From IMG/VR virus record IMGVR_UViG_3300035181_000357, positions 146,612 through 210,611 of that record: a stretch of 64,000 nt of DNA; one strand, written 5' to 3'. Position 1 is the first letter of the stretch; each line of letters starts with the position of its first letter. Both the position numbers and the translations under genes were made by a program. Positions 22,898 through 48,976 of the stretch are shown piece by piece. The notes below the pieces were generated by a model. The model searched no databases, was not told where the DNA came from, and worked only from the letters and a program-made list of their open reading frames with translations. Origin of the DNA: a virus.

Positions 22898-22903
22898 GCT
22901 ACC

Positions 22904-23215: not shown

Positions 23216-23237
23216 ACTTTCCTAAAGGAGAAATACC

Positions 23238-37032: not shown

Positions 37033-37108
37033 AGCCCTATAGCTCAGCGGTCAGAGCTGACGGCTCATAACCGTCTGGTCCTAGGTTCGAACCCTAGTGG
37101 GGCTACCA
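37033..37108 (+). tRNA. trnM: tRNA with CAU anticodon (Met or Ile2)
   Basis: Acceptor AGCCCTA/TGGGGCT, D stem GCTC/GAGC, anticodon stem GACGG/CCGTC, loop CTCATAA, T arm CTAGG TTCGAAC CCTAG, CCA encoded. One of three CAU tRNAs here; which is initiator, elongator or lysidine-modified Ile2 cannot be read directly. Confidence 0.9.
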
Positions 37109-37568: not shown

Positions 37569-37653
37569 GCTCCCATGGCGGAATTGGTAGACGCTACGGA
37601 CTTAAAATCCGTCGCCTATGGGCATCCCGGTTCGACTCCGGGTGGGAGCACCA
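37569..37653 (+). tRNA. trnL: tRNA-Leu(UAA)
   Basis: Acceptor GCTCCCA/TGGGAGC, anticodon stem ACGGA/TCCGT, loop CTTAAAA (UAA), long variable region, T arm CCCGG TTCGACT CCGGG, CCA encoded. Confidence 0.95.
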
Positions 37654-37832
37654 AACTGTTCTCTGTTACAGTCTTAACAGAGTGGTCCAGGCGGGGAAAT
37701 TCCCCATCCGTAGTCCCTATGCTACAGAAGGTCATAGGGTGGTGGAGGCGGTGTGACCTCGGTCATGCTTCTAGGTGTCGGGTGCGTAAGCAACATGACT
37801 CGAGTCAGATCCTCTAAGTCTGACATATTTCT

Positions 37833-38170
37833 GGGCCTGACAAGGTTTCGACAGGTTGTTAGCTTGGGATTGCGGTGCAGGGACTGGTTGATCAGCAGGC
37901 CAGTATAAAAGCAGATCAAACTTTAATTGCCGAGCCACAGCTCGCACTAGCAGCTTAAACACTGCTACGAGGAACCGCGAGAGGACAGTAGCGGGGAATC
38001 GTCACCACCGTCCTAGTTTCTACTAAGAGTTCGGGTAAGTAGGAGCGAAACTACGCGATCAAACGATAGTAGGCTGTCAGTCGCCGACCTATCGAGACCA
38101 GACTGACTAACCCTGTGAATGACTTCAATACAACTCTTCTTGGACGTGGGTTCGAATCCCACCAGGTCCA
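37833..38170 (+). ncRNA. ssrA: tmRNA (transfer-messenger RNA)
   Basis: 5' GGGCCTG pairs with CAGGTCC at the 3' end, with the tmRNA hallmark GACAAGGTTTCGACAGG at the 5' side and the T arm GTGGGTTCGAATCCCACC at the 3' side. Reading frame from 37911: tag ADQTLIAEPQLALAA then TAA (37956-37958). CCA is not encoded (A then CAT), so it depends on CCA addition, which the phage's own CCA enzyme could supply. A long hairpin follows at 38,175. One-piece form, 338 nt. tmRNA rescues stalled ribosomes and tags the nascent chain for proteolysis. Confidence 0.93.
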
Positions 38171-38174
38171 CATC

Positions 38175-38221
38175 GGTAGACTTCCTAGTTCTTACGGAGA
38201 ATAGGAACATGGAAGTCTACC
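38175..38221 (+). terminator. Long hairpin downstream of tmRNA
   Basis: GGTAGACTTCC (38175-38185) pairs with GGAAGTCTACC at the end (38211-38221), with an inner GTTCTT/GGAAC-type helix. No T-tract follows; may be a processing or termination element. Confidence 0.5.
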
Positions 38222-38314
38222 ATACAACCCTCTAAGATAATGGATGGACAAGAGGTAGGAAATTCCCTAGCGATAGGGATTAAGATCGGCGAGTGCCGAT
38301 ATACGGAGGTAGTT

Positions 38315-38413
38315 ATGGCTACTGAACCAGAGGACAACGACGGTCTACTCGGGACCGAGCGTGAATCAGATGAAGAAGGTTGTCCAGATTATGACAAGGA
38401 CGACGACGAGTAA
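38315..38413 (+). CDS. 32-residue highly acidic peptide
   Basis: ATG after ACGGAGG, with an ATCGGC/GCCGAT hairpin just upstream. Product has 15 Asp/Glu of 32 residues (EPEDNDG... ESDEEGCPDYDKDDDE). Good ribosome binding site and isolation between RNA genes support expression. DNA mimicry is one possible role of such peptides; not shown. Confidence 0.55.
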   Translation: MATEPEDNDGLLGTERESDEEGCPDYDKDDDE

Positions 38414-38676
38414 CACTGTACCATAATACCGGGGATGGGGACGACAGGCCCATACAAAGCAGATCCATAGTGTAAAAACTATGGGTGATGAAAGTCTGCC
38501 ATGTCAGTTGATTCTCTAGACTGACAAACCTTAAGTTGGATGCAAACGGAAGACGACTCGCCATCGACCCCAGGCACATGGGGAACCACGGCCTTTCCCA
38601 GATAGCGTAGTGGCCCTACGACGATGCGTGGAAGGTGGGATTATTCCCTTAAAAGCACTGTGTCATCCAACTACTT
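38414..38676 (+). other. Non-coding stretch before tRNA-Glu
   Basis: No coding frame. Hairpins such as CCATAG...CTATGG (near 38,464) and a GTAGTGGCCCTAC segment are visible; function unknown. Confidence 0.3.
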
Positions 38677-38754
38677 GATCCCATCGTCTAAACTGGTTTA
38701 GGACAGTAGCCTCTCAAGCTGCAGATCCGGGTTCGAATCCCGGTGGGACCACCA
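38677..38754 (+). tRNA. trnE: tRNA-Glu(CUC)
   Basis: Anticodon stem GTAGC/GCTGC, loop CTCTCAA (CUC), T arm CCGGG TTCGAAT CCCGG, CCA encoded. Acceptor GATCCCA/TGGGACC with an A2-C71 mismatch. Confidence 0.85.
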
Positions 38755-38756
38755 AG

Positions 38757-38843
38757 GCCGAGGTGCCAGAGTGATTGAATGGGCAGGTTTTGTAATCCTG
38801 TAGAGAAATCTCGTCATGGGTTTGAATCCCATCCTCGGCTCCA
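38757..38843 (+). tRNA. Class II (Ser-like) tRNA with UGU anticodon
   Basis: Acceptor GCCGAGG/CCTCGGC, D arm and long variable arm (GAGA AA TCTC) typical of serine tRNA, T arm ATGGG TTTGAAT CCCAT, CCA encoded. Anticodon stem CAGG/CCTG with a T-T at 31-39; loop TTTGTAA gives UGU, a threonine anticodon. Body and anticodon therefore disagree. Confidence 0.75.
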
Positions 38844-39011
38844 ATCAAAATTTATTTCATAAAAGTTATCTTCCAGAGATTGTAGTTCGTAATTAATGAA
38901 TTATGTGGTCATGGCCACGCGAATTCCCTTTGACAATTTCATAGAGATCAAGCACACGAGCTCTGCTGTAGAGTCTAACGATTCTGGCACACATGCCGTG
39001 TGTATTTATTA

Positions 39012-39096
39012 GGTAGGGTGGACAATGGTCGTCAAGCGGCTTTGAATACCGTCGCTCCGAGAGGAGTTGCAGGTTCGAATCCTGTCCCTACCGCCA
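39012..39096 (+). tRNA. trnS: tRNA-Ser(UGA)
   Basis: Acceptor GGTAGGG/CCCTACC, loop TTTGAAT (UGA), variable arm CTCC GAGA GGAG, T arm GCAGG TTCGAAT CCTGT, CCA encoded. A C-A pair closes the anticodon stem. Confidence 0.9.
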
Positions 39097-39105
39097 ATCT
39101 TTAAT

Positions 39106-39183
39106 GGCCCAGTACGCTAATTGGCAGATGCGGTAAGTTTCAAAAACTTGTGGTTGTCGGTTCGAATCCGACTTGGGCTACCA
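39106..39183 (+). tRNA. trnL: tRNA with CAA anticodon (Leu), short variable loop
   Basis: Acceptor GGCCCAG/TTGGGCT (with G-T pairs), anticodon stem TAAGT/ACTTG, loop TTCAAAA (CAA), T arm GTCGG TTCGAAT CCGAC, CCA encoded. The variable loop is only about 5 nt, unlike bacterial Leu tRNAs. Confidence 0.85.
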
Positions 39184-39185
39184 AT

Positions 39186-39274
39186 GGAAGATCGGCACAG
39201 TTGGAGAGGTGCGCCAGTTTGCTAAACTGGTAGATGTAACAGTCTAGAGGGTTCGATTCCCTTATCTTCCGCCA
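39186..39274 (+). tRNA. trnS: tRNA-Ser(GCU)
   Basis: Acceptor GGAAGAT/ATCTTCC, anticodon stem CCAGT/ACTGG, loop TTGCTAA (GCU), long variable arm, CCA encoded. Confidence 0.93.
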
Positions 39275-39280
39275 AAGTCG

Positions 39281-39376
39281 TCGCTCGCAAAGCGGAGAGA
39301 GGTAAGTAAGACAGATTAATGGTCTAGAACATCCTGTCAGAGAATACCTTGTAGGTTCAAATCCTACCTTGACAAC
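39281..39376 (+). pseudogene. Degenerate tRNA-like sequence
   Basis: A clear T arm (GTAGG TTCAAAT CCTAC) followed by CTTGACA ACA, but no 5' partner for the acceptor and no clean anticodon stem upstream. Likely a decayed tRNA, or the 3' part of an unusual one. Confidence 0.35.
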
Positions 39377-39381
39377 AATAC

Positions 39382-39457
39382 GCAACGCCATAGAAAAGCC
39401 TTCATCTTAATAGGGATGGGGGGGAAACCCTCGCTGGCTTTTCACCACTTTCGTTGC
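39382..39457 (+). ncRNA. Structured RNA family B, copy 1
   Basis: Outer stem GCAACG/CGTTGC, then CC and six bases, inner stem AAGCC/GGCTT, TTCATC, and TTCACC before CTTTCGTTGC. The same CC-N6-stem-TTCATC layout recurs at 40,334 and 40,898 with different stem bases. Confidence 0.6.
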
Positions 39458-39467
39458 ATTCTTATTA

Positions 39468-39541
39468 CGGTCACTGGCGCAGCCTGGTAGCGCACCTGCT
39501 TTGGGAGCAGGGGGTCGAGTGTTCGAATCACTCGTGGCCGA
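39468..39541 (+). tRNA. trnP: tRNA-Pro(UGG), copy 1
   Basis: Acceptor CGGTCAC/GTGGCCG, anticodon stem CCTGC/GCAGG, loop TTTGGGA (UGG), T arm CGAGT GTTCGAA region intact. CCA not encoded (A then CAT). Confidence 0.92.
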
Positions 39542-39580
39542 CATCGTGATCTAGACTTAGGTTTAGATCACACAATATCT

Positions 39581-39657
39581 CGGGGTGAAAGTGAGCCTGG
39601 TACACGGTCTGGTTTGGAACCAGAAGATCGTCGGTTCAAATCCGACCTCCCCGACCA
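39581..39657 (+). tRNA. trnP: tRNA-Pro(UGG), copy 2
   Basis: Acceptor CGGGGTG/CTCCCCG with a T6-T67 mismatch, anticodon stem TCTGG/CCAGA, loop TTTGGAA (UGG), T arm GTCGG TTCAAAT CCGAC, CCA encoded. Confidence 0.88.
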
Positions 39658-39692
39658 ATATCAAACTTTATAATTATATGTAGAGGACTATC

Positions 39693-40049
39693 ATGTTCAA
39701 AGCTAAACTACTAAAGACTGCATCAAGTCCACAATTGACTCTGGCTCAACAAGTCTATGCTCAACATAAGGCAGAGATAGATCCTAAGATTTTCAAGGCT
39801 GCTGACTATGTAGTTGATAATGCTATCGATCTAGATTCTGAAACTGCAGATAATCATCTATTTGGTGATGCTATATTTGAGCCATGGTTTGAAGCCAGCC
39901 CAGAATATCTCAGTATGACAGAAGAATCTGGGAACGAAGATGACGAGACCGATTATATTGGTGGTGTCTGGGAACAAGTTCTGTCTACAAATCCAAAGTA
40001 TAAAGATGTCGTAGCTAAATTTGCTGACATCAGAATCAATGGATATTAA
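39693..40049 (+). CDS. Hypothetical protein with N-terminal FKAKLLKTA motif
   Basis: 118 residues; AGAGGACT upstream of the ATG. Acidic, with no recognised fold. It begins MFKAKLLKTASSP, nearly identical to the N-termini of the paralogues at 12,678 and 13,492, although the rest is unrelated. An isolated gene inserted between tRNA-Pro and tRNA-Asp. Confidence 0.7.
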   Translation: MFKAKLLKTASSPQLTLAQQVYAQHKAEIDPKIFKAADYVVDNAIDLDSETADNHLFGDAIFEPWFEASPEYLSMTEESGNEDDETDYIGGVWEQVLSTNPKYKDVVAKFADIRINGY

Positions 40050-40055
40050 TATCAT

Positions 40056-40134
40056 GGAGTGCTAGGGGAGTCAGGCCGTCCCCAGTTGCTTGTCACGCAA
40101 CAGATCACGGGTTCGAATCCCGTGCACTCCGCCA
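40056..40134 (+). tRNA. trnD: tRNA-Asp(GUC)
   Basis: Acceptor GGAGTGC/GCACTCC, anticodon stem GTTGC/GCAAC, loop TTGTCAC (GUC), T arm ACGGG TTCGAAT CCCGT, CCA encoded. Confidence 0.93.
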
Positions 40135-40152
40135 TTCTCTCTAGAAATAGAG

Positions 40153-40245
40153 GATCATGAGTTGGGTAGAATCCACGTCTGAGGGACGTTAGGTGTCTGC
40201 TGTGCTGCAGCGAGAAACCCCACTAGCAGACCCTGTCTCATGATC
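40153..40245 (+). ncRNA. Three-helix structured RNA
   Basis: Closing helix GATCATGAG (40153-40161) with CTCATGATC (40237-40245); inner hairpin ACGTC/GACGT (40175-40179, 40185-40189) and stem GTCTGCT/AGCAGAC (40195-40201, 40225-40231). A three-way junction layout. No match to a ribozyme class I know. Confidence 0.55.
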
Positions 40246-40254
40246 AAATATCAT

Positions 40255-40331
40255 GCTCCGTATGCTGAAGTTGTCGAGGCGTTGGTCTGCAAAACCAATC
40301 TTAGCCAGTTCAAGTCTGGCACGGAGCTCCA
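40255..40331 (+). tRNA. trnC: tRNA-Cys(GCA)
   Basis: Acceptor GCTCCGT/ACGGAGC, anticodon stem TTGGT/ACCAA, loop CTGCAAA (GCA), T arm GCCAG TTCAAGT CTGGC, CCA encoded. Confidence 0.93.
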
Positions 40332-40333
40332 AA

Positions 40334-40484
40334 TTCGTAATGCCCTTTAGAAGCTTTCATCCACTATAAGGACGTTATCGGAGGTTCGAATCCTCCTCCC
40401 GGAACCAATATCTTATTTTTCATTCCGGGATAGCTTAGTGGCCTAAAGCACGTAAAAGAGCTTTTTTACTATTTTCATTGCGAA
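40334..40484 (+). tRNA. Circularly permuted tRNA inside structured RNA family B, copy 2
   Basis: The 3' half comes first: T arm GGAGG TTCGAAT CCTCC (40380-40396), acceptor strand TCCCGGA (40397-40403), A and CCA. After a 16-bp A/T spacer the 5' half follows: TCCGGGA (40424-40430), TA, D stem GCTT/AAGC. The acceptor strands pair perfectly. Flanks TTCGTAATG (40334-40342) and CATTGCGAA (40476-40484) form a 9-bp helix, with AAGCT/AGCTT inside. Anticodon undetermined, since the anticodon arm is where the two gene ends lie. Confidence 0.65.
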
Positions 40485-40493
40485 GCCTATTAT

Positions 40494-40579
40494 GGTCCAG
40501 GAGTCCAACGGTTGAGACAGCACGCTGTTAACGTGCCGCTGTAAAAGCACATAGGGTTCAACTCCCTACTGGATCGCCA
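40494..40579 (+). tRNA. trnN: tRNA-Asn(GUU) with enlarged variable region
   Basis: Acceptor GGTCCAG/CTGGATC, anticodon stem GCACG/CGTGC, loop CTGTTAA (GUU), T arm TAGGG TTCAACT CCCTA, CCA encoded. Variable region of about 15 nt is unusual for tRNA-Asn. Confidence 0.88.
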
Positions 40580-40630
40580 TCGGGTAATGATCCCAAGAGA
40601 TATATCAAAGAAGCAAATGAATTTATCCAT

Positions 40631-40718
40631 GCATCAGCGGCAGAGTTGGAGGGCTGCAACGGTCTGTAAAACCGTCGGGTTGATCCCCTAGTAGGTTCGA
40701 GTCCTACCTGATGCACCA
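40631..40718 (+). tRNA. trnY: tRNA-Tyr(GUA)
   Basis: Acceptor GCATCAG/CTGATGC, anticodon stem ACGGT/ACCGT, loop CTGTAAA (GUA), long variable arm as expected for bacterial Tyr, CCA encoded. Confidence 0.95.
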
Positions 40719-40720
40719 AA

Positions 40721-40795
40721 GTCGATAGTGGACGAGGGACGTCCGGGAGTCTTCTAAACTCCATTCTCCGGGTTCGAGTCCTGGTATCGACACCA
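40721..40795 (+). tRNA. trnR: tRNA-Arg(UCU), intronless copy
   Basis: Acceptor GTCGATA/TATCGAC, anticodon stem GGAGT/ACTCC, loop CTTCTAA (UCU), CCA encoded. Same anticodon as the gene with an insertion at 35,986. Confidence 0.93.
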
Positions 40796-40799
40796 ATTT

Positions 40800-40891
40800 C
40801 CCGGTGTGATGTACGGTTGCATAGGTGGCTTTATACCCCACTCGCGCCAGATTAGCGCCTTGTTAGGGTTCGACTCCCTACGCCGGGACCA
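40800..40891 (+). tRNA. Class II tRNA with enlarged anticodon loop (UUA or UAU)
   Basis: Acceptor CCCGGTG/CGCCGGG, variable arm GCGC/GCGC, T arm TAGGG TTCGACT CCCTA, CCA encoded. Anticodon stem GGTGG/CCACT leaves a 9-nt loop CTTTATACC, so the anticodon is ambiguous. Identity not assigned. Confidence 0.65.
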
Positions 40892-40897
40892 ATTCTT

Positions 40898-40963
40898 GAT
40901 AACGCCTTCGAATCAGGTTTCATCCATTAAATGAAAAGCCTGTTCATCCTGTTCTTCGTTATC
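40898..40963 (+). ncRNA. Structured RNA family B, copy 3
   Basis: Outer stem GATAACG/CGTTATC (40898-40904, 40957-40963), CC, seven bases, inner stem CAGG/CCTG extended by TTTCAT/ATGAAA, then TTCATCC and CTTCGTTATC. Same order of elements as copies at 39,382 and 40,334. Confidence 0.6.
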
Positions 40964-40969
40964 ATCCAC

Positions 40970-41043
40970 TGCGCTGTCGTCTAGTGATAAGGCAAGAGAC
41001 TTTGACTCTCTGAACGTAGGTTTGATTCCTGCCAGCGTAACCA
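40970..41043 (+). tRNA. trnQ: tRNA-Gln(UUG)
   Basis: Acceptor TGCGCTG/CAGCGTA, anticodon stem AGAGA/TCTCT, loop CTTTGAC (UUG), T arm GTAGG TTTGATT CCTGC, CCA encoded. Confidence 0.92.
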
Positions 41044-41165
41044 TCGATTAACTTTCTTTTGAGAGTTCATCAAAATATCATCATCAGTATACTTCCAACC
41101 TGTTGGTAAAATAGAAGGGCTGTTGATGTTAGCACGACTGTTCGACTCAGCCTCGTGCGAAATAT

Positions 41166-41240
41166 GGGCTATAGGAATTAAAGGTTGTTCGCATGACTGA
41201 AAATCATGAGGAGGCGGTTCGATACCGTCATAGCCCACCA
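41166..41240 (+). tRNA. trnF: tRNA-Phe(GAA)
   Basis: Acceptor GGGCTAT/ATAGCCC, anticodon stem CATGA/TCATG, loop CTGAAAA (GAA), T arm GGCGG TTCGATA CCGTC, CCA encoded. A GCACGA/TCGTGC hairpin lies just upstream. Confidence 0.93.
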
Positions 41241-41242
41241 AC

Positions 41243-41322
41243 GTCCGGGTACGCAAATCTGGCAAAGCGACTATCCTCAGAAGGTAGTGACTCTGTGGGT
41301 TCGACTCCCACCTCGGACACCA
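41243..41322 (+). tRNA. trnL: tRNA with CAG anticodon (Leu), short variable loop
   Basis: Acceptor GTCCGGG/CTCGGAC, anticodon stem CTATC/GGTAG, loop CTCAGAA (CAG), T arm GTGGG TTCGACT CCCAC, CCA encoded. Variable loop about 7 nt; D arm resembles that of the CAA tRNA at 39,106. Confidence 0.88.
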
Positions 41323-41403
41323 ATCAATGCAGATGTACGCTATCTGGTATCTCGGAAATCCTGAAAAGGTTGTGTTTTTAGCACACCGTAACAGGCTTCC
41401 ATC

Positions 41404-41490
41404 GCGGATATGGTGGAACTTGGTAGACACGCAGCTTTGAGATGGCTGTCCCGAAAGGGGGTGGGGGTTCGAGTCCCCCTATCCGCACCA
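41404..41490 (+). tRNA. trnL: tRNA-Leu(GAG)
   Basis: Acceptor GCGGATA/TATCCGC, anticodon stem CAGCT/GGCTG, loop TTGAGAT (GAG), long variable arm, T arm GGGGG TTCGAGT CCCCC, CCA encoded. Confidence 0.93.
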
Positions 41491-41567
41491 ATGTTAGGGG
41501 TTAATGCGGTAGCTGACGCAAGAAACAGTCGCTTCCCCAACATGGAGAGAATCTTGCGTGACTCTCC
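41491..41567 (+). ncRNA. Two hairpins with complementary loops
   Basis: Hairpin 1: ATGTT-GGGG (41491-41500) with CCCCAACAT (41535-41543). Hairpin 2: GGAGAG (41544-41549) with CTCTCC (41562-41567). Loop bases ACGCAAGA (41516-41523) and TCTTGCGT (41552-41559) are perfectly complementary over 8 bp, a likely kissing interaction. Confidence 0.6.
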
Positions 41568-41588
41568 TCACCTTGTGCGATAAAATAT

Positions 41589-41662
41589 GGGTCCTTAGTT
41601 AAGCGGGATAACTTCTGGTTTGCATCCAGACATCGGGAGTTCGATTCTCCCAGGATCCACCA
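41589..41662 (+). tRNA. trnA: tRNA-Ala(UGC)
   Basis: Acceptor GGGTCCT/AGGATCC, anticodon stem TCTGG/CCAGA, loop TTTGCAT (UGC), T arm CGGGA GTTCGAT region intact, CCA encoded. Confidence 0.93.
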
Positions 41663-41665
41663 TAT

Positions 41666-41749
41666 GGGGCTGAAGTGACTTTGGTAAGCACACCGTTAGG
41701 GCGTACGCCGAACGGAGGTTATGGGTTCGATTCCCGTCATGTTCCACCA
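41666..41749 (+). tRNA. Atypical tRNA with 13-nt anticodon loop
   Basis: T arm ATGGG TTCGATT CCCGT and CCA are clear. Acceptor GGGGCTG pairs with CATGTTCC only with a bulge. Anticodon stem CCGTT/AACGG encloses AGGGCGTACGCCG, which contains the palindrome GGCGTACGCC. Anticodon cannot be assigned; either a degenerate tRNA or one with a small insertion. Confidence 0.5.
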
Positions 41750-41755
41750 ATCAAT

Positions 41756-41841
41756 GCATCGGACGCAGAACTGGTTGCTGCCCCAGACTCTTAATCTGGT
41801 TCCTAACGGACTTGGGGGTTCGAATCCCCTCCGATGCACCA
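41756..41841 (+). tRNA. Class II-like tRNA with CUU (Lys) anticodon
   Basis: Acceptor GCATCGG/CCGATGC, anticodon stem CCAGA/TCTGG, loop CTCTTAA (CUU), T arm GGGGG TTCGAAT CCCCT, CCA encoded. The variable region is about 14 nt, long for a lysine tRNA. Confidence 0.82.
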
Positions 41842-41847
41842 AATATC

Positions 41848-41934
41848 AAGGAGTTGGCCGAGGCTGGCATAGGCGATGGTTTGTGGTACCATACACAGGG
41901 GTTCGAATCCCCTACTCCTGACCAATTTTTAGGA
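41848..41934 (+). tRNA. trnH: tRNA-His(GUG)
   Basis: Anticodon stem ATGGT/ACCAT, loop TTGTGGT (GUG), T arm AGGGG TTCGAAT CCCCT, CCA encoded. Acceptor AAGGAGT/ACTCCTG has an A1-G72 mismatch or a bulged A; the usual G-1:C73 pair is not evident. Confidence 0.85.
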
Positions 41935-41978
41935 TGTTTTAAACTTCCTGATGCTACTATAGTGAATATGGAGTTTAA

Positions 41979-42977
41979 ATGTCCCATGATAATTATGTCG
42001 TAAAGGTTGGAAACGATTATGTAGAAAGAAGTGCCTTTGTAATCGCTGATTCTACAGATCCTCTTGCTGTTGCTCGTGTTACTAACACTGCTCCTGGAGC
42101 TAGTGATTATGGCGTAGTAGTCAGAATGATCGGTACTGTCTCTGTCACTGGTGGTGGCGGTGGTGCTGTCTATGGACCTTCGTCCCTAGGTGTGGTATTA
42201 TCAAATCCTCCAGTAGCAATTGGTGGAGTTGATGCTGGAGGCTTGTTAAGAGTTATCAGGACTGACGCTGCTGGATATGGGCTAAACATGATTACCAATG
42301 GTACGCAGTTCATGCCCACCATGGATGCTGCGGCTCGTCGTGGTTACATGACTCACACAGATGGTACGAACTCCATGCCAACTGGTGATGCTGTTGCTCG
42401 TGGTATTTATCATCGTATTACGGATGGTGTTACACAAGTGGCCGTTAAAGCAGCTTCGACTGCTGCTGTCGCTGCTGATCCTGCCTTGGTAGTAGCGCTG
42501 TCTCCAAACAATAACACTGCTGCCCTAGCCTGGTTTGAGAAGATCACTGATGGAACAAATACTGCAGCTGTTAAAGCTTCTACTACTGTAGCTGCTATTA
42601 CTGATCCTGCCTTGGTTACGACTCTGAGTCCTAACCTTCCTGTTCCAACGATGAGCACTATCTCATCTGCTGCGACAACGAATGCTACATCTGTTAAAGC
42701 ATCTGCTGGAACCGTATTCAATATCGTATGTTCTAATACTGGTGCTGCTGCTGCGTATGTCAAGTTCTACAACAAGGCTTCTGCTCCTACAGTCGGTACA
42801 GATGTTCCTGTATTTACATTGACCATTCCAGCTTCTGGCTCAGTAATAATCCCTGCATCGTTGATTGGTATTAGATTTGCTACTGGTATTGCTCTGGCAA
42901 TTACCAATTTAGCAGCTGATTCTGATACAACGGCTGTAGTCTTAAATCAAGTCAAAGTAATGACATCCTATATTTAA
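41979..42977 (+). CDS. Virion structural protein, repeat-rich
   Basis: 332 residues, Ala/Thr/Gly-rich and almost without charged residues. Repeated units of the form TDGTNTAAVKAS / DPALVTTLSPN occur near residues 120-220, a pattern common in decoration or tail-tip associated phage proteins. Weak Shine-Dalgarno. It is the largest gene inside the tRNA array, placed between tRNA-His and tRNA-Gly. Virion role inferred from composition. Confidence 0.65.
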   Translation: MSHDNYVVKVGNDYVERSAFVIADSTDPLAVARVTNTAPGASDYGVVVRMIGTVSVTGGGGGAVYGPSSLGVVLSNPPVAIGGVDAGGLLRVIRTDAAGYGLNMITNGTQFMPTMDAAARRGYMTHTDGTNSMPTGDAVARGIYHRITDGVTQVAVKAASTAAVAADPALVVALSPNNNTAALAWFEKITDGTNTAAVKASTTVAAITDPALVTTLSPNLPVPTMSTISSAATTNATSVKASAGTVFNIVCSNTGAAAAYVKFYNKASAPTVGTDVPVFTLTIPASGSVIIPASLIGIRFATGIALAITNLAADSDTTAVVLNQVKVMTSYI

Positions 42978-42995
42978 TAGGATGGTGGTACTACT

Positions 42996-43069
42996 GCGGG
43001 TGTAGCTCAACGGTAGAGCTCCTGGTTTCCACCCAGATGACGAGGGTTCAATTCCCTTCACCCGCTCCA
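42996..43069 (+). tRNA. trnG: tRNA-Gly(UCC)
   Basis: Acceptor GCGGGTG/CACCCGC, D stem GCTC/GAGC, loop TTTCCAC (UCC), CCA encoded. Confidence 0.93.
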
Positions 43070-43080
43070 TTTTTCTCCAT

Positions 43081-43158
43081 AGAGGGTAACGCGAAGTGGT
43101 TGAGCGGCCAGCCTTTCAAGCTGTCGATTAGCGGGTTCAAATCCCGTACCCTTTACCA
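43081..43158 (+). tRNA. trnE: tRNA-Glu(UUC)
   Basis: Acceptor AGAGGGT/ACCCTTT, anticodon stem CCAGC/GCTGT (C-T at the end), loop CTTTCAA (UUC), T arm GCGGG TTCAAAT CCCGT, CCA encoded. Confidence 0.9.
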
Positions 43159-43186
43159 AAGATTCTAAATTTTCGTTGAATTTTAT

Positions 43187-43263
43187 GTCCCCATAGCTGA
43201 GTCTGGCCTTAGCACCGTTCTACGAAAGCGGAGACACTGGTTCAAATCCAGTTGGGGATACCA
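43187..43263 (+). tRNA. trnR: tRNA-Arg(ACG)
   Basis: Acceptor GTCCCCA/TGGGGAT, anticodon stem CCGTT/AGCGG, loop CTACGAA (ACG; needs A-to-I editing), T arm ACTGG TTCAAAT CCAGT, CCA encoded. Confidence 0.92.
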
Positions 43264-43266
43264 ATT

Positions 43267-43341
43267 GCCAGCAAACCCGAATGGTGAGGGGGATGTCTCA
43301 TAAGCATCTTGTCAAGGGTTCGAATCCCTTTGTTGGCACCA
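43267..43341 (+). tRNA. trnM: tRNA with CAU anticodon (Met or Ile2)
   Basis: Acceptor GCCAGCA/TGTTGGC, anticodon stem GATGT/GCATC, loop CTCATAA, T arm AAGGG TTCGAAT CCCTT, CCA encoded. Anticodon arm is nearly identical to the CAU tRNA at 44,307. Confidence 0.9.
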
Positions 43342-43346
43342 CCAAT

Positions 43347-43434
43347 GGAAGATCGCCGAAGTCGGAGCGTCGGAACAGCCTGGAAAGTTGTGGCCGTCAA
43401 AGGCCAGAGAGTTCGAATCTCTCATCTTCCGCCA
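43347..43434 (+). tRNA. trnS: tRNA-Ser(GGA)
   Basis: Acceptor GGAAGAT/ATCTTCC (identical to tRNA-Ser(GCU)), anticodon stem ACAGC/GTTGT, loop CTGGAAA (GGA), variable arm GGCC/GGCC, CCA encoded. Confidence 0.94.
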
Positions 43435-43561
43435 TTGAAGAAGAAGAATAAGAATAAGAAGGGTGACCAGAGCGTGATTAATCTGGTTTCATAAAGGTGA
43501 GCTTCCTACATCTTATAAAGATGCACTGCTCGTTACTGTCAGTTCTCAGAAATAAGTTTAT

Positions 43562-43635
43562 TCCAGATTCATTCAAAGGTAGGATGGGAGTTTCTGAAGC
43601 TCTTAATGATGGTTCGAATCCATCATCTGGATCCA
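43562..43635 (+). tRNA. trnQ: tRNA-Gln(CUG)
   Basis: Acceptor TCCAGAT/ATCTGGA, anticodon stem GGAGT/GCTCT, loop TTCTGAA (CUG), T arm GATGG TTCGAAT CCATC, CCA encoded. D arm is weak. Confidence 0.82.
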
Positions 43636-43669
43636 TCTAGTGTGTAGCATACATCTATATTTAATCTAT

Positions 43670-43743
43670 TGACCTGTAACTCAATGGCAGAGTAATCGAC
43701 CGATAATCGATAAATGGCAGTTCGAATCTGCCCAGGTCAACCA
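43670..43743 (+). tRNA. trnI: tRNA-Ile(GAU)
   Basis: Acceptor TGACCTG/CAGGTCA, anticodon stem ATCGA/TCGAT, loop CCGATAA (GAU, with C instead of T at position 33), T arm GGCAG TTCGAAT CTGCC, CCA encoded. Confidence 0.88.
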
Positions 43744-43777
43744 ATCCTCTTAGATTTAAATACCAAATAGGAGTAGT

Positions 43778-43918
43778 ATGCAGTTACTAGGTGTGATATC
43801 CATAGTAATCTTCAGCTTATGGTTAGTCTTCAGAAAGAAGAAATGCCATGACTGTGCTAATTCCTTCTGTAAGAATGGGTCTGTGGTGCTAGCGGGAACA
43901 CGCTTGAATGGCATTTAA
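43778..43918 (+). CDS. 46-residue membrane peptide overlapping tRNA-Ala
   Basis: ATG after AGGAG. N-terminal hydrophobic helix (LLGVISIVIFSLWLVF) then KKKCHDCANSFCKNG, a Cys-rich tail. The last 14 codons run into tRNA-Ala(GGC), whose sequence supplies the stop. The C-terminal residues may therefore be fortuitous. Confidence 0.55.
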   Translation: MQLLGVISIVIFSLWLVFRKKKCHDCANSFCKNGSVVLAGTRLNGI

Positions 43919-43951
43919 GAGTTAAGGGTTCGACTCCCTTCAGATCCACCA
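43877..43951 (+). tRNA. trnA: tRNA-Ala(GGC)
   Basis: Acceptor GGGTCTG/CAGATCC, anticodon stem CTTGA/TTAAG, loop ATGGCAT (GGC), T arm AAGGG TTCGACT CCCTT, CCA encoded. Its first 42 bases overlap a small membrane-protein frame. Confidence 0.88.
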
Positions 43952-43953
43952 AT

Positions 43954-44023
43954 ACATCCGATATCAAACGGTCAGATACCAGACTTTTAATCTGGAGAGG
44001 CTTGACTCCCACCGGGTGCCCCA
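43954..44023 (+). pseudogene. Degenerate tRNA-Lys(UUU)-like
   Basis: Anticodon stem CCAGA/TCTGG with loop CTTTTAA is intact and CCA is present, but the variable loop is missing and the T arm is malformed (AGAGG CTTGACT CCCAC). Acceptor has A1-C72. Probably non-functional or highly deviant. Confidence 0.55.
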
Positions 44024-44039
44024 GTTCTTGTTGGTTCAT

Positions 44040-44114
44040 GGCCCTTTAGCTCAGTGGTAGAGCGGCTTCTTTACACGGAGAAGGTCGGCGGTTCAATCCC
44101 GTCAAGGGCTACCA
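44040..44114 (+). tRNA. trnV: tRNA-Val(UAC)
   Basis: Canonical lengths throughout: acceptor GGCCCTT/AAGGGCT, loop TTTACAC (UAC), variable AGGTC, T arm GGCGG TTCAATC CCGTC, CCA encoded. Anticodon stem has one mismatch. Confidence 0.88.
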
Positions 44115-44118
44115 AAAT

Positions 44119-44191
44119 CGGGAGATAGCTTAAGTGGTAGAGCGGTCTTTGCGCAAGATAGATGGTGCTTCGAGAGCATCTCTCCCGGCCA
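44119..44191 (+). tRNA. trnR: tRNA-Arg(GCG), 4-bp anticodon stem
   Basis: Acceptor CGGGAGA/TCTCCCG, anticodon stem GTCT/AGAT, loop TTGCGCA (GCG), T arm GGTGC TTCGAGA GCATC, CCA encoded. Slightly shortened. Confidence 0.75.
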
Positions 44192-44195
44192 ATAT

Positions 44196-44270
44196 GCCTC
44201 ATTAACTCAGCGGAAGAGTTCTGGTCTTCGAAACCAGCAGTCGGCGGTTCGAATCCGTCATGAGGCACCA
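44196..44270 (+). tRNA. trnR: tRNA-Arg(UCG)
   Basis: Acceptor GCCTCAT/ATGAGGC, anticodon stem CTGGT/ACCAG, loop CTTCGAA (UCG), T arm GGCGG TTCGAAT CCGTC, CCA encoded. Confidence 0.94.
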
Positions 44271-44306
44271 ACTTCGATGTATTATAATGTAAAGTATCTT
44301 TGAAAT

Positions 44307-44395
44307 TGCGGGTGGACTGGTCGGCAATCAGGCGATGTCTCATAAGCATTGTAAAACGGAGGTTCAACTCCCCGACCCGCTACCAAATTTGCAGT
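44307..44395 (+). tRNA. trnM: tRNA with CAU anticodon, candidate initiator
   Basis: Position 1:72 is T-T with GCGGGT/ACCCGC pairing inside; an unpaired 1:72 is the bacterial initiator feature. Anticodon stem GATGT/GCATT, loop CTCATAA. The three G-C pairs typical of initiator anticodon stems are absent and the T stem has mismatches, so the initiator call is tentative. Confidence 0.7.
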
Positions 44396-44462
44396 ACCCT
44401 CTCTTCCAGCTTTATACAGCCGCTAGCTGGACGGCTTTAGCCCCATGTGGGTAGGAGATAGC

Positions 44463-45212
44463 ATGATGCATTATAACAACTCAATCGTAACGATTCTAGA
44501 TGCAAAGACTAAGAATCAATTCCGGGAATATGATCATATAAGACAAGGAAACTTGAGTCAGGTAACTGTCCGAGTTCCTTTTGGATCTGAATATTTATTC
44601 CGTTTTAAATTTCCTGATCAGAAACGTCGTCGGCTTGAGATATCAATCGATGGTACTCTGGTTACAGACAATCTCATCATCACTGATGGTAGTGAACTAG
44701 AGAGATTTGTTGAATCTGATAAAAGATTCAAGTTCGTGGAAGCATCGAATGATGCCGTATCCGATCCAGGTTCTCCATCAAATGGAAAGATCGAGATAAA
44801 GCTCTTTGAAGAATCCCTTCCAATCACCCATCTGACTAAGACCTGGAATGACAACGTTATCTATCGGCCAATCAAAGGTTATCCTGGACCAGGATGTGAG
44901 ATCACATGTTCCTCCTATTCCTCAGATATGAACTTGAATGTCTATAATACTAGTAGCTGCAATGCTTCAAACGTTCTTAGAAGTATGGCATCTAATGACA
45001 TCGGAGCTACGGTAGAAGGATCTAGATCTAAGCAAGAATTTGGATCAACTACATGGCAAGGTGATTCTTTCTGTAGTACTTTCATCTTCTGGATGAAGGG
45101 TAAGCAAAATGATACAAAAGAAGATAAGTTCTGTAGCTCTTGTGGTAACAGTATTCGTAGTGCTGCAGATCGTTTCTGTTCAAAGTGTGGCAACAAAATT
45201 TCTAGAACTTAG
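44463..45212 (+). CDS. Hypothetical protein with C-terminal double zinc ribbon
   Basis: Start taken at ATG 44463 behind TAGGAGA; an upstream in-frame ATG at 44445 lacks a ribosome binding site. 249 residues. Residues 1-200 are beta-rich and Ser/Asn-rich. The last 35 residues contain FCSSCGNS and FCSKCGNK, two CxxC pairs forming a zinc ribbon. Could bind nucleic acid or protein; not determined. Confidence 0.7.
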   Translation: MMHYNNSIVTILDAKTKNQFREYDHIRQGNLSQVTVRVPFGSEYLFRFKFPDQKRRRLEISIDGTLVTDNLIITDGSELERFVESDKRFKFVEASNDAVSDPGSPSNGKIEIKLFEESLPITHLTKTWNDNVIYRPIKGYPGPGCEITCSSYSSDMNLNVYNTSSCNASNVLRSMASNDIGATVEGSRSKQEFGSTTWQGDSFCSTFIFWMKGKQNDTKEDKFCSSCGNSIRSAADRFCSKCGNKISRT

Positions 45213-45248
45213 AAACACTTAATCGTAAGTGTTATCTAAGAGTGTCGT

Positions 45249-45629
45249 ATGGATTTTGAGTATGGAAGCCTTGATAGGGACATTGATATGGAGCATAGGA
45301 ATCTATGCTCCATATTAGATGATATCACAGAAGCTATCAAGACTCAAGGCCTAATAGAGCCTCTTTTAGAACAGCTATTACACGATAGTGTTATTCATTT
45401 CAAAAATGAAGAAGCTAAAATGCAATTCTATAAGTTCCCTCGTGAAGAATATGAAAGACACAAAGAAGCTCACATTAAACTTATCTCTGTATTCGAAGAG
45501 ATGTTAGAACGCTACACAAATTCTCCTGTGAGGAATTATATCTATTACAGGTTTGTGGATTCATGGCTCAAAAATCATTTCAAGGGCATGGATTCAAAAT
45601 TCGCTGACTTCTTGAATAATAAGAAGTAA
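45249..45629 (+). CDS. Hemerythrin-domain protein, copy 1
   Basis: 126 residues, a single four-helix hemerythrin domain. The full di-iron ligand set is present: H16, H50-x3-E54, H71-x3-H75 and H110-x4-D115. Bacteriohemerythrins bind O2 reversibly or sense O2/iron/NO. In a phage this could buffer oxygen or iron; inference. GTATGG start without a strong Shine-Dalgarno. A second, divergent copy lies at 57,648. Confidence 0.82.
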   Translation: MDFEYGSLDRDIDMEHRNLCSILDDITEAIKTQGLIEPLLEQLLHDSVIHFKNEEAKMQFYKFPREEYERHKEAHIKLISVFEEMLERYTNSPVRNYIYYRFVDSWLKNHFKGMDSKFADFLNNKK

Positions 45630-45641
45630 TAACTAGTTACT

Positions 45642-45717
45642 GGTTCCGAAGCTCAATGGTAGAGCAAGGAGTCTCTAAAACTTCTGGCTGTGGATTCGAA
45701 TTCCACCGGAATCACCA
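45642..45717 (+). tRNA. Predicted amber-suppressor tRNA (CUA anticodon)
   Basis: Acceptor GGTTCCG/CGGAATC, D stem GCTC/GAGC, six-bp anticodon stem AGGAGT/ACTTCT, loop CTCTAAA (CUA), short variable loop GGCT, T arm GTGGA TTCGAAT TCCAC, CCA encoded. Reads UAG if charged. Amino acid identity is not determinable. Confidence 0.82.
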
Positions 45718-45834
45718 AATCAAGGGAGAATAGTATGACTGGAAGATCACACCTCTAGGTCCTAGCTCGCTCGCCATGACCTTATAGTATATGTCTGTTG
45801 CTAACTAAGCCTACATATTCTAAAGGAGAAAACA

Positions 45835-46470
45835 ATGGCTAACACAAGAGTACTATTCACTACCGAACAGAAAGAAGCCTGGAACAAGGCTAAGAAATTA
45901 CTGAACCAATATAGAGGTTCCTCAGAATATAGATATCTTCATATCGCGATGTCTGAACTACGGGCTGAGAATGGTAGAACCCATAAAGGTCCTATCGAGG
46001 CAGAACCTAAGAATCCAGATAAGCAAGTACATAGACTGGCTAAGATTCGTTCTAATGCAATACCAGAGCGAGTTAAGGAATGGAAAGAGTATCTTCGAGA
46101 TCCTGGTTCCAAGAAGCTCTATATCATCGTGAGAGATGACCTGAGTCCTAGTCAGAAGGCTGTTCAAGCTTCTCATGCCACTGCTGAATTTCAGAAGAGG
46201 CTACCAAATGCTCCATGGATTAACGGGACGATGATCTTGATGGAGTCAGATTCTAAATCTGAGCACTATAAATCTTATGCTGGTTCCAGATGGGGCCTCA
46301 AATCCGAAGACAAAGATCAGTTCGAGGAATTCTGTAAGAGTATCTACAGACCTGATTATCAAGTCATCTGGAGAGAACCTGATCAGGCTAACCGTGTAAC
46401 TGCTATCGCTTTGTTGAGTAATTATATGAATGATAGTATCGGTAGGTTAAGGGGAATAAAATTACTATAA
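45835..46470 (+). CDS. PTH2-like peptidyl-tRNA hydrolase with N-terminal extension
   Basis: 211 residues; AAAGGAG upstream. Residues about 97-200 follow the archaeal/eukaryotic PTH2 fold: KLYIIVRDDLSPSQKAVQAS then HATAEF, with conserved Lys, Asp and Gln-x-x-H positions, and a later TAIALLSN. The N-terminal 95 residues are helical and basic, possibly RNA binding. Cleaves peptidyl-tRNA to recycle tRNA. Encoded inside the tRNA array, next to the suppressor tRNA. PTH2 type is unusual for bacteria, which use Pth1. Confidence 0.7.
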   Translation: MANTRVLFTTEQKEAWNKAKKLLNQYRGSSEYRYLHIAMSELRAENGRTHKGPIEAEPKNPDKQVHRLAKIRSNAIPERVKEWKEYLRDPGSKKLYIIVRDDLSPSQKAVQASHATAEFQKRLPNAPWINGTMILMESDSKSEHYKSYAGSRWGLKSEDKDQFEEFCKSIYRPDYQVIWREPDQANRVTAIALLSNYMNDSIGRLRGIKLL

Positions 46471-46610
46471 TGCCTCCTATCATGGGATGTAGGACCATGT
46501 CCGTAAGTAGGAAAGATTTGAACCCATGCAACATATCTACCTTCAGGATTTCTCTGGTCTGATCAATGAAGTAAATGTTCTAATCACTGGTCCCCTCGAA
46601 AGGAGCCGAA

Positions 46611-47279
46611 ATGAAACACTACACACCAGACGAACTAGCCGAGCATATAAAGTGGCGGAAAAGCAACAAAACAGGTAAGTATGCTGACCTCCAGGGTGTT
46701 AACCTCCAGGGTGCCGACCTCCGGGGTTCCTACCTCCGGGGTGCTAACCTAACGGGTGCCAACCTCCAGCGTGCCGACCTTCGGGGTGCCGACCTCCGGC
46801 GTACCTACCTCACGGGTGCCGACCTCCGGGGTGCTAACCTCCAGGGTGCTGACCTCCAGGGTGCTGACCTCCGGCGTGCCGACCTCCGGGATGCCTACCT
46901 CACGGGTGCCAACCTCCAGGATGCCTACCTCACGGGTGCCGACCTCCGGGATGCTGACCTCCAGGATGCCTACCTTCATGGAATAAAGATCAAGAAGACG
47001 GCAGTATTCAGTGGACTTTACAAATACATCGCCATGCCGGTGATCGCTGAAGACGGGGTTGAATATATCCAGCTCGGATGCCACTTCCGGCTCGTGTCCG
47101 AGTGGGAAGCCAATTTTTGGAATAACCCCAGCGAATTTCCAGAAGACGGAAGCACTGGCAGCCTCCAGCGGCTCATGGCGTATCAGGCTTGCCTGGAATG
47201 GCTGCGAATTAACCGCGAATCGGTCAGAATAAGTCTGAAACTGTCGTTCCCGAGAAACTGTAACTGTCCAGAGGCATGA
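46611..47279 (+). CDS. Pentapeptide-repeat protein
   Basis: 222 residues; AAAGGAG upstream. Residues 25-125 are about 20 tandem A(D/N)LxG-type pentapeptides (GADLRGADLR pattern), predicted to form a right-handed quadrilateral beta helix. The C-terminal 95 residues (KIKKTAVFSGLYKYIAMPVI...) form a domain seen with such repeats in bacterial and phage proteins. Some pentapeptide proteins mimic DNA to inhibit gyrase. DNA is far richer in G/C than its neighbours, suggesting recent acquisition. A tRNA 3' fragment follows. Confidence 0.88.
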   Translation: MKHYTPDELAEHIKWRKSNKTGKYADLQGVNLQGADLRGSYLRGANLTGANLQRADLRGADLRRTYLTGADLRGANLQGADLQGADLRRADLRDAYLTGANLQDAYLTGADLRDADLQDAYLHGIKIKKTAVFSGLYKYIAMPVIAEDGVEYIQLGCHFRLVSEWEANFWNNPSEFPEDGSTGSLQRLMAYQACLEWLRINRESVRISLKLSFPRNCNCPEA

Positions 47280-47330
47280 CCAAGAGAAAGAAGCCATAGG
47301 GGTTCGATTCCCTTTAGAGGCTCCGAACTT
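47280..47330 (+). pseudogene. tRNA 3' fragment after the pentapeptide gene
   Basis: ATAGGGGTTCGATTCCCTTT followed by AGAGGC TCCG has a T arm and 3' acceptor strand without a matching 5' half nearby. Partial complement GCCTC occurs at 46,472, before the pentapeptide gene, so insertion of that gene into a tRNA is possible. Confidence 0.4.
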
Positions 47331-47357
47331 CAGTATATAAGTGTGAAGGAGGTTCCA

Positions 47358-47513
47358 ATGCTTCTATTTATTTTAGGATTTGTATTGGGTGTTATCGGTG
47401 CAAGTCTGGTAATCCTCAATAACAAGAATAAGGCTCTCGCTGCTATTCAAGCTGCTAAAGAGTTATCGGAAAAAGAGTTAGCTGTTCTAAAAGCTAAAAC
47501 TCAGATACGTTAG
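47358..47513 (+). CDS. 51-residue membrane protein with coiled-coil tail
   Basis: AAGGAGG 7 bp before ATG. N-terminal helix (LLFILGFVLGVIGASLVIL) then an Ala/Lys/Glu-rich helix (AAIQAAKELSEKELAVLKAK). Bitopic anchor with a cytoplasmic coiled coil. Function unknown. Confidence 0.65.
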   Translation: MLLFILGFVLGVIGASLVILNNKNKALAAIQAAKELSEKELAVLKAKTQIR

Positions 47514-47640
47514 TTAATGCTGTATCGCCCTCTATCATGGGTTATACAGAGTCTTTATGATAGCGTCTAGGTTGGCTCCGGAGCCTAGATGTGAAGTTAG
47601 CAACCATTCCAGGTTGTTGAATCCATCCGGAGCACCCTAT
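47514..47640 (+). other. tRNA-like minihelix region
   Basis: GCTCCGG pairs with CCGGAGC followed by A and CCC around 47,577-47,637, with a GGTTGTTGAATCC T-arm-like segment, but only about 45 nt lie between. Probably a truncated tRNA or a tRNA-like hairpin. Confidence 0.35.
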
Positions 47641-47724
47641 GCCTCTGTAGGCGAATTGGTCTAGCCACTGGATTTAGGTTCCAGGCCTTCGGGCGTCTCG
47701 GTTCGATTCCGAGCAGAGGTACCA
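47641..47724 (+). tRNA. trnL: tRNA-Leu(UAG)
   Basis: Acceptor GCCTCTG/CAGAGGT, anticodon stem CTGGA/TCCAG, loop TTTAGGT (UAG), long variable arm, T arm CTCGG TTCGATT CCGAG, CCA encoded. Confidence 0.93.
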
Positions 47725-47798
47725 ATACCCAATTAGTTCAACGACAGAACATATCTTTGACGTAGATAGGATGAAGGTTGACTCCTTCATTGGGTATC
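47725..47798 (+). tRNA. trnV: tRNA-Val(GAC) with atypical T arm
   Basis: Acceptor ATACCCA/TGGGTAT, anticodon stem TATCT/AGATA, loop TTGACGT (GAC). The T arm is ATGAAGG/CCTTCAT around TTGACT, lacking the TTC core; CCA not encoded. Starts directly after the CCA of tRNA-Leu(UAG). Confidence 0.7.
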
Positions 47799-47804
47799 AA
47801 CAAT

Positions 47805-47880
47805 GCTGATTAAGCACATGCGGACGTGCACATCTTTGGTAAGGATGAGGTAGTGGGTTCAAGGCCCATAATCAGCTCCA
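47805..47880 (+). tRNA. trnT: tRNA-Thr(GGU)
   Basis: Acceptor GCTGATT/AATCAGC, D stem GCAC/GTGC, anticodon stem CATCT/GGATG, loop TTGGTAA (GGU), CCA encoded. Confidence 0.93.
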
Positions 47881-47882
47881 TT

Positions 47883-47956
47883 GCTTCCATAGTTTAGTGG
47901 TAGAATTTCTGCTTGCCATGCAGAGGACACGAGTTCAAGTCTCGTTGGAAGCTCCA
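47883..47956 (+). tRNA. trnG: tRNA-Gly(GCC)
   Basis: Acceptor GCTTCCA/TGGAAGC, anticodon stem TCTGC/GCAGA, loop TTGCCAT (GCC), T arm ACGAG TTCAAGT CTCGT, CCA encoded. Confidence 0.94.
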
Positions 47957-47959
47957 AAC

Positions 47960-48034
47960 AACTCAGTAGCTGAAAGGATTAGCATTTGTTTCCTAAACAA
48001 AGGCATGTGGGTTCGAGTCCCATCTGAGTTACCA
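47960..48034 (+). tRNA. trnR: tRNA-Arg(CCU)
   Basis: Acceptor AACTCAG/CTGAGTT, anticodon stem TTTGT/ACAAA, loop TTCCTAA (CCU), T arm GTGGG TTCGAGT CCCAT, CCA encoded. Confidence 0.93.
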
Positions 48035-48580: not shown

Positions 48581-48976
48581 ATGAAGACTTTGTTCCACCA
48601 GCATCTTCTTGTTAAAGCCTGGGTTAATAATGCCCCTACTTCAGAAGAATCTCTGAATTCATGGCTGCGTGAACTAGTATCCTGTATAGATATGAAGATC
48701 TGTATAGAACCTAGATCACAGTATGTCGATGCTCCTGGAAATCGAGGTCTGACTGGGCAGATAGGTATTGAGACTTCTCATATCGCTATTCATATATGGG
48801 ATGAGGAAAAGCCTGGTATGCTTCAAATGGATGTATATAGTTGTAAATGTTTCGATACCAAAACGGTTATTGATAAAATAGCTGAGTGGAATCTCACTAA
48901 GTATGAGTGTATGACAATAGATAGAAATGAAGAGTTCTCTATTAAGGAGCACTCTGTAGTAATCCTAGGGAGATAA
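48581..48976 (+). CDS. S-adenosylmethionine decarboxylase-like protein (SpeD family)
   Basis: 131 residues, the usual size of bacterial proenzymes. Core signature: GLTGQIGIETSHIAIHIWDE at residues 56-75, with Ser66 as candidate pyruvoyl-forming residue, His71 five residues later as in bacterial SpeD, then MDVYSCKC with Cys88/Cys90. SpeD makes decarboxylated AdoMet for spermidine synthesis; phage homologues are known in cyanophages. The cleavage-site residue before Ser is Thr rather than Glu, so activity is uncertain. Its stop codon lies inside tRNA-Trp. Confidence 0.7.
   Translation: MKTLFHQHLLVKAWVNNAPTSEESLNSWLRELVSCIDMKICIEPRSQYVDAPGNRGLTGQIGIETSHIAIHIWDEEKPGMLQMDVYSCKCFDTKTVIDKIAEWNLTKYECMTIDRNEEFSIKEHSVVILGR

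Follow-up and report, generated by a model that had tools for sequence, protein, structure and literature searches.

Why should a phage that ends many of its own genes with TAG carry a tRNA that appears to read this codon? The question is raised by a tRNA gene with anticodon CUA and an encoded CCA, located on the plus strand at positions 45642 to 45717 of the window, i.e. the whole stretch of 64,000 nucleotides analysed here, which forms the final 64 kb of an IMG/VR virus record of 210,611 bases. The source is a virus of bacteria (phage).

Suppressor-type tRNA and use of TAG

ARAGORN called the gene as tRNA(CTA) (labelled 'Pyl' because of the anticodon only), the Rfam tRNA model matched it with 57 bits (E = 2e-10), and its minimum free energy (MFE) fold has an anticodon stem of six pairs (AGGAGT/ACTTCT), a loop of 7 nt (CTCTAAA) and a variable loop of 4 nt. 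The tRNA folds well and presents its CUA anticodon in a regular loop of 7 nt, as expected of an amber suppressor; judged by its sequence, the gene is a suppressor-type tRNA predicted to decode UAG, and it is presumably charged with an amino acid. These results agree with the original prediction of an amber-suppressor tRNA with a short variable loop. The six-pair stem that it had also pointed out is present in the fold, where one extra nucleotide on the 5' side produces the sixth pair, but a special meaning is unsupported because the tRNA of a relative (L011) has an ordinary stem of five pairs, and the sixth pair is therefore not a conserved feature.

Pyrrolysine tRNAs (PylT) have one base between the acceptor and D stems and a variable loop of 3 nt. 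The window tRNA does possess the six-pair anticodon stem of this class, but with two bases (AA) between the acceptor and D stems and a 4-nt variable loop a PylT identity was rejected. The pyrrolysine synthetase PylS (TIGR02367) had no match in the record, which may be incomplete. The best score for an anticodon other than CTA was that of tRNA-Trp, which is a weak hint at the origin of the gene, and a narrow pattern of the window tRNA had no match among viral contigs.

The gene belongs to an array of 40 tRNAs and a tmRNA on the plus strand (36590 to 48034; ARAGORN), with no tRNA-Trp among the 40 and no tRNA called in the rest of the 210,611-base record. A further tRNA with a CAT anticodon (43267-43338; Rfam, 57 bits) was missed by ARAGORN, and a tRNA-like stretch is found at 41666-41749. 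Just 5' of the array lies an RNA ligase gene (34523-35614), which fits repair of tRNAs cut by host defence systems. Genes between or beside the tRNAs encode a hemerythrin-like protein (45249-45629), a pentapeptide-repeat protein (46611-47279) and an S-adenosylmethionine decarboxylase-like protein (48581-48976). Farther upstream (21884-24650), genes for a cytidylyltransferase/NMN adenylyltransferase-Nudix protein and a nicotinamide phosphoribosyltransferase form an NAD salvage pair; the first of them ends in TAG, and a small ORF (22904) follows in frame two codons on. Close DNA relatives were absent from the phage collection searched, where pentapeptide repeats accounted for the distant matches.

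Genes of this phage follow the standard code, in which TAG is one of the ordinary stops. TAG terminates 33 of the 182 non-overlapping ORFs of at least 100 aa in the record, and code 11 already yields a high coding density, so global recoding (code 15) was rejected. This is what had been predicted, and the TAG stops named as examples do appear in the ORF list. The accompanying proposal of readthrough of selected genes was sensible, although no long TAG-ended ORF of the genome stands out as a target, and nothing pointed to host or defence genes. The candidate target that had been missed is a leader peptide directly 3' of the tRNA, with a PTH2-like gene behind it.

A leader, a hairpin and a PTH2-like gene behind the tRNA

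On the plus strand, the tRNA(CUA) is followed in order by a Shine-Dalgarno site (AAGGGAG, 45722-45728), a tiny ORF, a hairpin and a PTH2-like gene (45835-46470). The tiny ORF, MTGRSHL[TAG]VLARSP-TGA (45735-45779), reads ATG ACT GGA AGA TCA CAC CTC TAG GTC CTA GCT CGC TCG CCA TGA. Its amber codon (45756-45758), which we refer to as a gate, is followed by G, and its final stop TGA (45777-45779) comes after Arg-Ser-Pro, the ending being RSP and not RPP. The hairpin (45780-45826; MFE -11.8 kcal/mol, z = -1.95) includes in its pairing part of the ribosome-binding site that serves the next gene, whose Shine-Dalgarno site is AAAGGAG (45822-45828). Blocking the 12 bases that follow the leader stop lowers the cost of opening the binding site from 4.2 to 0.9 kcal/mol, which fits translational attenuation.

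The architecture of the leader is repeated in other phages (L010, L011, L020, L039, L040 and others). With the window protein as query, two diverged phage contigs (L010 and L011) were matched at 44-47% amino acid identity, and both have a tRNA(CTA) in the same place and an amber leader behind it, the two leaders being MKKL[TAG]VSTRPP-stop and MKY[TAG]QRPP-stop. A third relative with 52% identity (L012) shares the tRNA position, its lone tRNA(CTA) lying directly upstream of the gene, and is devoid of amber leader and gate. Moreover, the cultured and distant Synechococcus phage BUCT-ZZ01, found via its tRNA, has a tRNA(CTA) followed by MGGDAS[TAG]INLKPP-stop.

The gene behind the leader encodes 211 aa. 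Alone, its product scores below the cut-off of the Pfam PTH2 model (PF01981; E = 0.043 and 0.003), and divergent gated relatives from other phages score above it. When 19 relatives were combined into a profile, it matched solved Pth2 with E = 1e-7. An AlphaFold model from 19 sequences reached a pLDDT of 84 (a first model from four sequences was poor, pLDDT 52), and its ten best fold matches in the PDB (E from 5e-4; TM-score by target 0.45-0.62) are all chains of the Pth2 family or PTH2-like. As far as model and profile can tell, the protein has a divergent form of the PTH2 fold and carries an additional helical domain at its N terminus. Its Gln107 aligns with the Lys of solved Pth2 four residues before the conserved Gln, a lysine that we take to be catalytic, and enzymatic activity is therefore uncertain. 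The protein may perhaps remove peptidyl-tRNA after suppression, or limit suppression by feedback. The jumbo phages Atu_ph07, XacN1, RaK2, SNUABM_19, CBB, RAS14 and Phosso (W01-W06, W12) have two to four PTH2 paralogs each, which is surprising since, to our knowledge, the PTH2 enzyme is absent from most bacteria.

Stop-gated genes beside suppressor tRNAs

A pattern search of viral DNA for tRNA(CUA) returned 105 stretches, and the survey set comprised 108 tRNA(CUA) loci with a median of 10 kb examined. PTH2 homologs lie near the tRNA in many of them, and most have a TAG few codons past the start, directly 5' of the conserved domain (for instance MS[TAG]IKSGDKLYIVTRAD in L053). Divergent PTH2 genes with such an in-frame amber just past the start codon were found at 23 loci. 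After grouping at 70% identity, a strict TAG gate is present in 20 tRNA(CTA) groups, in L054 and L067 (tRNA by pattern) and in CBB/SNUABM, and no TAA or TGA gate occurs among these PTH2 clusters. Several cultured phages possess a gated PTH2, namely SNUABM_19 (BF-like), CBB, ME3, Arash, Cane17, XacN1 (MK[TAG]TIKAMKLTAQTSGQNILQHGL) and RAS14 (MK[TAG]TLNKLKNTEQTKGQTILQHGL), and a tRNA(CTA) was confirmed in each. The protein is conserved from the amber as far as the annotated RAS14 start. In CBB and Atu_ph07 the gated PTH2 is annotated from a start within the conserved domain, and in SNUABM_19 the gene is absent from the annotation; the gating proposed here would, if true, explain these truncated or missing annotations.

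The canonical PTH2 paralogs of XacN1, Myrna, RAS14, CBB, SNUABM_19, RaK2 and Atu_ph07 lack an early stop. RaK2 has no match to tRNA(CUA), and its divergent PTH2 is ungated (a TAG just before the ATG start was not counted as a gate), while Myrna, whose TAG is flanked by a GTG on either side, was left uncertain. Among the PTH2 loci compared, signs of global recoding were seen in the Lak loci only, the very short L084 being not judgeable; in the Lak phages L015 and L016 an ungated PTH2 lies about 0.6-0.7 kb 3' of a tRNA with a stop-reading UUA anticodon, the sole tRNA within 24 kb. Some further loci were observed in the survey. The start region of a PTH2 gene in L086 (544-963) has three in-frame ambers (MKRPINEALL[TAG]QGVIKMPFR[TAG]VEKDDYG[TAG]IPHPFIYV). 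In Acinetobacter phage AM101 (L021), a gene with the annotation peptidyl-tRNA hydrolase / release-factor-like lies close to a tRNA(CTA), and no leader was seen directly behind this tRNA. About 1.3 kb of Sinorhizobium phage Phosso behind the tRNA(CTA) (L019, 6075-7370) has no convincing ORF or Rfam match and reads like structured RNA.

The gate codon follows the anticodon of the suppressor. Agrobacterium phage Atu_ph07 has been reported to encode an opal suppressor tRNA (PMC6102473), and we confirmed its tRNA(UCA). The prediction, fixed beforehand, that its PTH2 would be gated by TGA was borne out (MIGEHF[TGA]INYEELGYETEEQFVEASDKLRIYSIVRDD), while the counterpart of this gene in the tRNA(CUA) phage Phosso reads MKY[TAG]VEEKLRVR...NKLRIYSIIRGD. 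Scans for UCA and UUA tRNAs added a TGA gate beside a tRNA(UCA) (L162) and a TAA gate beside a tRNA(UUA) (L184). Hence CUA phages have TAG gates, UCA phages TGA gates and one UUA phage a TAA gate, with no mismatch among confirmed pairs, although the opal and ochre cases are few (two and one confirmed). For 26 TAG, two TGA and one TAA gates, with suppressors confirmed or found by pattern, a perfect match is expected by shuffling about once in 11,000, an approximate value as some genomes are related. A TAA gate in L187 was not counted as an ochre match, because ARAGORN calls the tRNA as Leu(TAA), and PTH2 genes without a gate also occur near UCA or UUA tRNAs (L167, L182, L183).

Leaders of the kind seen in the window, i.e. 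an upstream ORF with an amber, 4 to 15 codons and a (R/K)PP, RGP or GPP-stop ending, take the place of an in-gene gate before PTH2 genes that have an N-terminal domain and before genes of several other phage families (L039, L040, L094, L119, L081, L098, L114, L117 and others), and are present at 28 tRNA(CUA) loci. Across the 108 loci the Pro-stop motif, which was defined after the first examples and applied by the same rule to all controls, comes after TAG 30 times, after TAA three times and after TGA never; small ORFs of this kind contain the three codons equally often (341 TAG, 340 TAA and 357 TGA). The motif is absent from the 31 UCA/UUA loci, and Atu_ph07 has an opal leader, MK[TGA]IVFKPP-stop. 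All 20 distinct leaders end with TAA or TGA. Moreover, a purine follows 46 of 49 gates and leaders, compared with 112 of 207 ordinary TAG stops (p = 3e-8), and a purine after the stop codon is favourable to suppression. Altogether 51 of the 108 loci possess a gate or leader within the short stretch examined; the other 57 (median 10 kb examined) have neither, three of them (L033, L036, L086) carrying ambers outside the strict rules.

Shuffled sequences give weaker hairpins than those that lie between the leaders and their genes (mean z = -1.24, p = 0.002). In about five of the 21 leaders (window, L040, L094, L119, L065) the binding site is clearly masked, and in others it is not; as a universal step masking is unsupported, the mean opening energy being no higher than with shuffled upstream sequence. 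The downstream step may therefore differ between phages. Three further protein families were observed under amber Pro-stop leaders, one with '..IENAKTRFFESKEHYL..' (L098, L117, L093, L031, L065, L109), one with 'MSVELKIKSKHLSEEARIIRFEE..' (L114, L100, L030, L020, L124) and one with 'METTINNGITYTYNQSEI..' (L110, L023, L034, L017); they have no significant database match where tested (PHROG). By eye, several of these proteins seem to have a short motif, 'HIAxxLLRG', in common with the window protein's N-terminal domain.

Proposed circuit, rival readings and known systems

We consider it likely that a small number of amber-gated genes depend on the suppressor tRNA for their expression and that here, via a stalling leader, this tRNA opens the ribosome-binding site in front of the PTH2-like gene. 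The tRNA(CUA) would act in trans, as the key to a small circuit of gene control. In its absence, ribosomes starting at 45735 would end at the UAG after seven codons and leave, and the hairpin behind the leader would mask the binding site. With charged tRNA(CUA) present, an amino acid would be inserted at the leader UAG, and the ribosome would reach Arg-Ser-Pro-UGA and stall or terminate slowly there, as TnaC does at Arg-Pro-UGA; its footprint would then open the hairpin and allow translation of the PTH2-like gene. Many other phages appear to reach this dependence in a simpler way, with the cognate stop inside the PTH2 gene itself, just past the start. The link between tRNA and gate is well supported by these comparisons, and they support the view that expression of the PTH2-like gene is tied to the suppressor tRNA; we infer the charging, the stalling, the benefit, the sense of the switch (on) and what the protein does. 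Specific gated phage genes are thus probably made only when the suppressor tRNA is present. That each phage without recoding has its amber, opal or ochre suppressor matched to a few genes gated by the cognate stop seems to us a reasonably probable generalisation; the cognate gates would lie in the gene or in a Pro-stop arrest leader, and such genes would respond to the level of the suppressor and to its competition with release factors.

Other explanations of the locus were weighed against this one. Minigenes that drain tRNAs are known from phage lambda, and a gene with a hydrolase fold does adjoin a very short ORF here, so the ORF might drop peptidyl-tRNA at the UAG for the PTH2-like protein to recycle, the codons past the UAG being meaningless. 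We find this very improbable, since the conserved part of the leader follows the stop (the Pro-stop ending comes after TAG and hardly ever after TAA or TGA), other phages have the stop inside the PTH2 gene without any minigene, and the type of stop tracks the suppressor. It is scarcely credible that the tRNA is a decoy or leftover of no use in translation, whose altered anticodon loop escapes or absorbs anticodon nucleases; the RNA ligase and the large tRNA array do resemble those of phages facing tRNA-cutting defences, but the CUA anticodon is kept at the same place in diverged relatives and is paired with cognate gates across many phages, and a decoy needs no gates. General readthrough, in which the tRNA extends many TAG-ended phage or host proteins and lies near the leader incidentally, is improbable as well. 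Although charged tRNA(CUA) would give some readthrough at TAG, a common stop here, in-frame extensions behind TAG are no longer than those behind TGA, the authors of the XacN1 genome detected no sequence similarity 3' of its amber stops (PMC5852040), and both the position of gates after start codons and their match to the anticodon are left unexplained.

The direction and level of control deserve separate consideration. The Pro-stop stall might repress the gene, or affect transcription termination or mRNA decay, which we regard as unlikely. TnaC acts on Rho termination (PMC8429421), and several leader hairpins leave the binding site free, so that masking cannot be the step in those leaders. 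However, masking and its release by blocking are clear in the window and the four leaders named above, and gates inside genes can act only as on-switches, which is why we take the leader as an on-switch too.

The ingredients of the circuit proposed here are known singly (suppressor tRNA, arrest leader and early stop as a sensor). Stop-recoded phages (code 15; crAss-like and Lak) also encode a CUA tRNA that reads UAG, for which control of gene expression has been proposed, but they have ambers throughout their genes, whereas the window phage is not recoded and the amber stands at a single leader or gene start. The protein resembles the Pth2 / PTH2 family (PF01981) in fold and sequence profile, and differs in its score below the Pfam cut-off, its extra helical N-terminal domain and a Gln at the Lys position of solved Pth2.

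The leader itself resembles TnaC of the E. coli tna operon, having a Shine-Dalgarno site and a short ORF with an Arg(-x)-Pro-stop ending directly before the regulated gene. TnaC is arrested with Pro24 in the P site and a stop codon in the A site (PMC8429421), and its effector is tryptophan, whereas here the suppressor tRNA must first pass the ribosome through the UAG; the phage leaders are also shorter (14-20 codons), and their arrest is predicted. An early in-frame stop that senses decoding at that stop is described for prfB, the gene of release factor 2 (PMC12421855). There a stop near the gene start likewise serves as the sensor, but prfB senses RF2 through frameshifting, while in the phages a dedicated suppressor tRNA would read the stop in frame.

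Suppressor tRNAs are present in many large phages that are not recoded, and the circuit would, if true, give these tRNAs a concrete target. For instance, the authors of the XacN1 genome could not identify the genes targeted by its suppressor tRNAs (PMC5852040), and its amber-gated PTH2 is a candidate. Among open-access papers other than preprints we found no report of a suppressor tRNA that in nature serves its own set of gated genes. The proposed circuit is directly testable in laboratory phages and would represent a natural switch with a stop-reading tRNA as its input. The same logic was built synthetically in 2020 as a suppressor-tRNA feedforward loop by Ho et al. (PMC7969014), in which an amber or opal codon in the gene and a controlled suppressor tRNA give tight control of expression; that loop is engineered, while the phage system is natural and has leaders besides the gates within genes.
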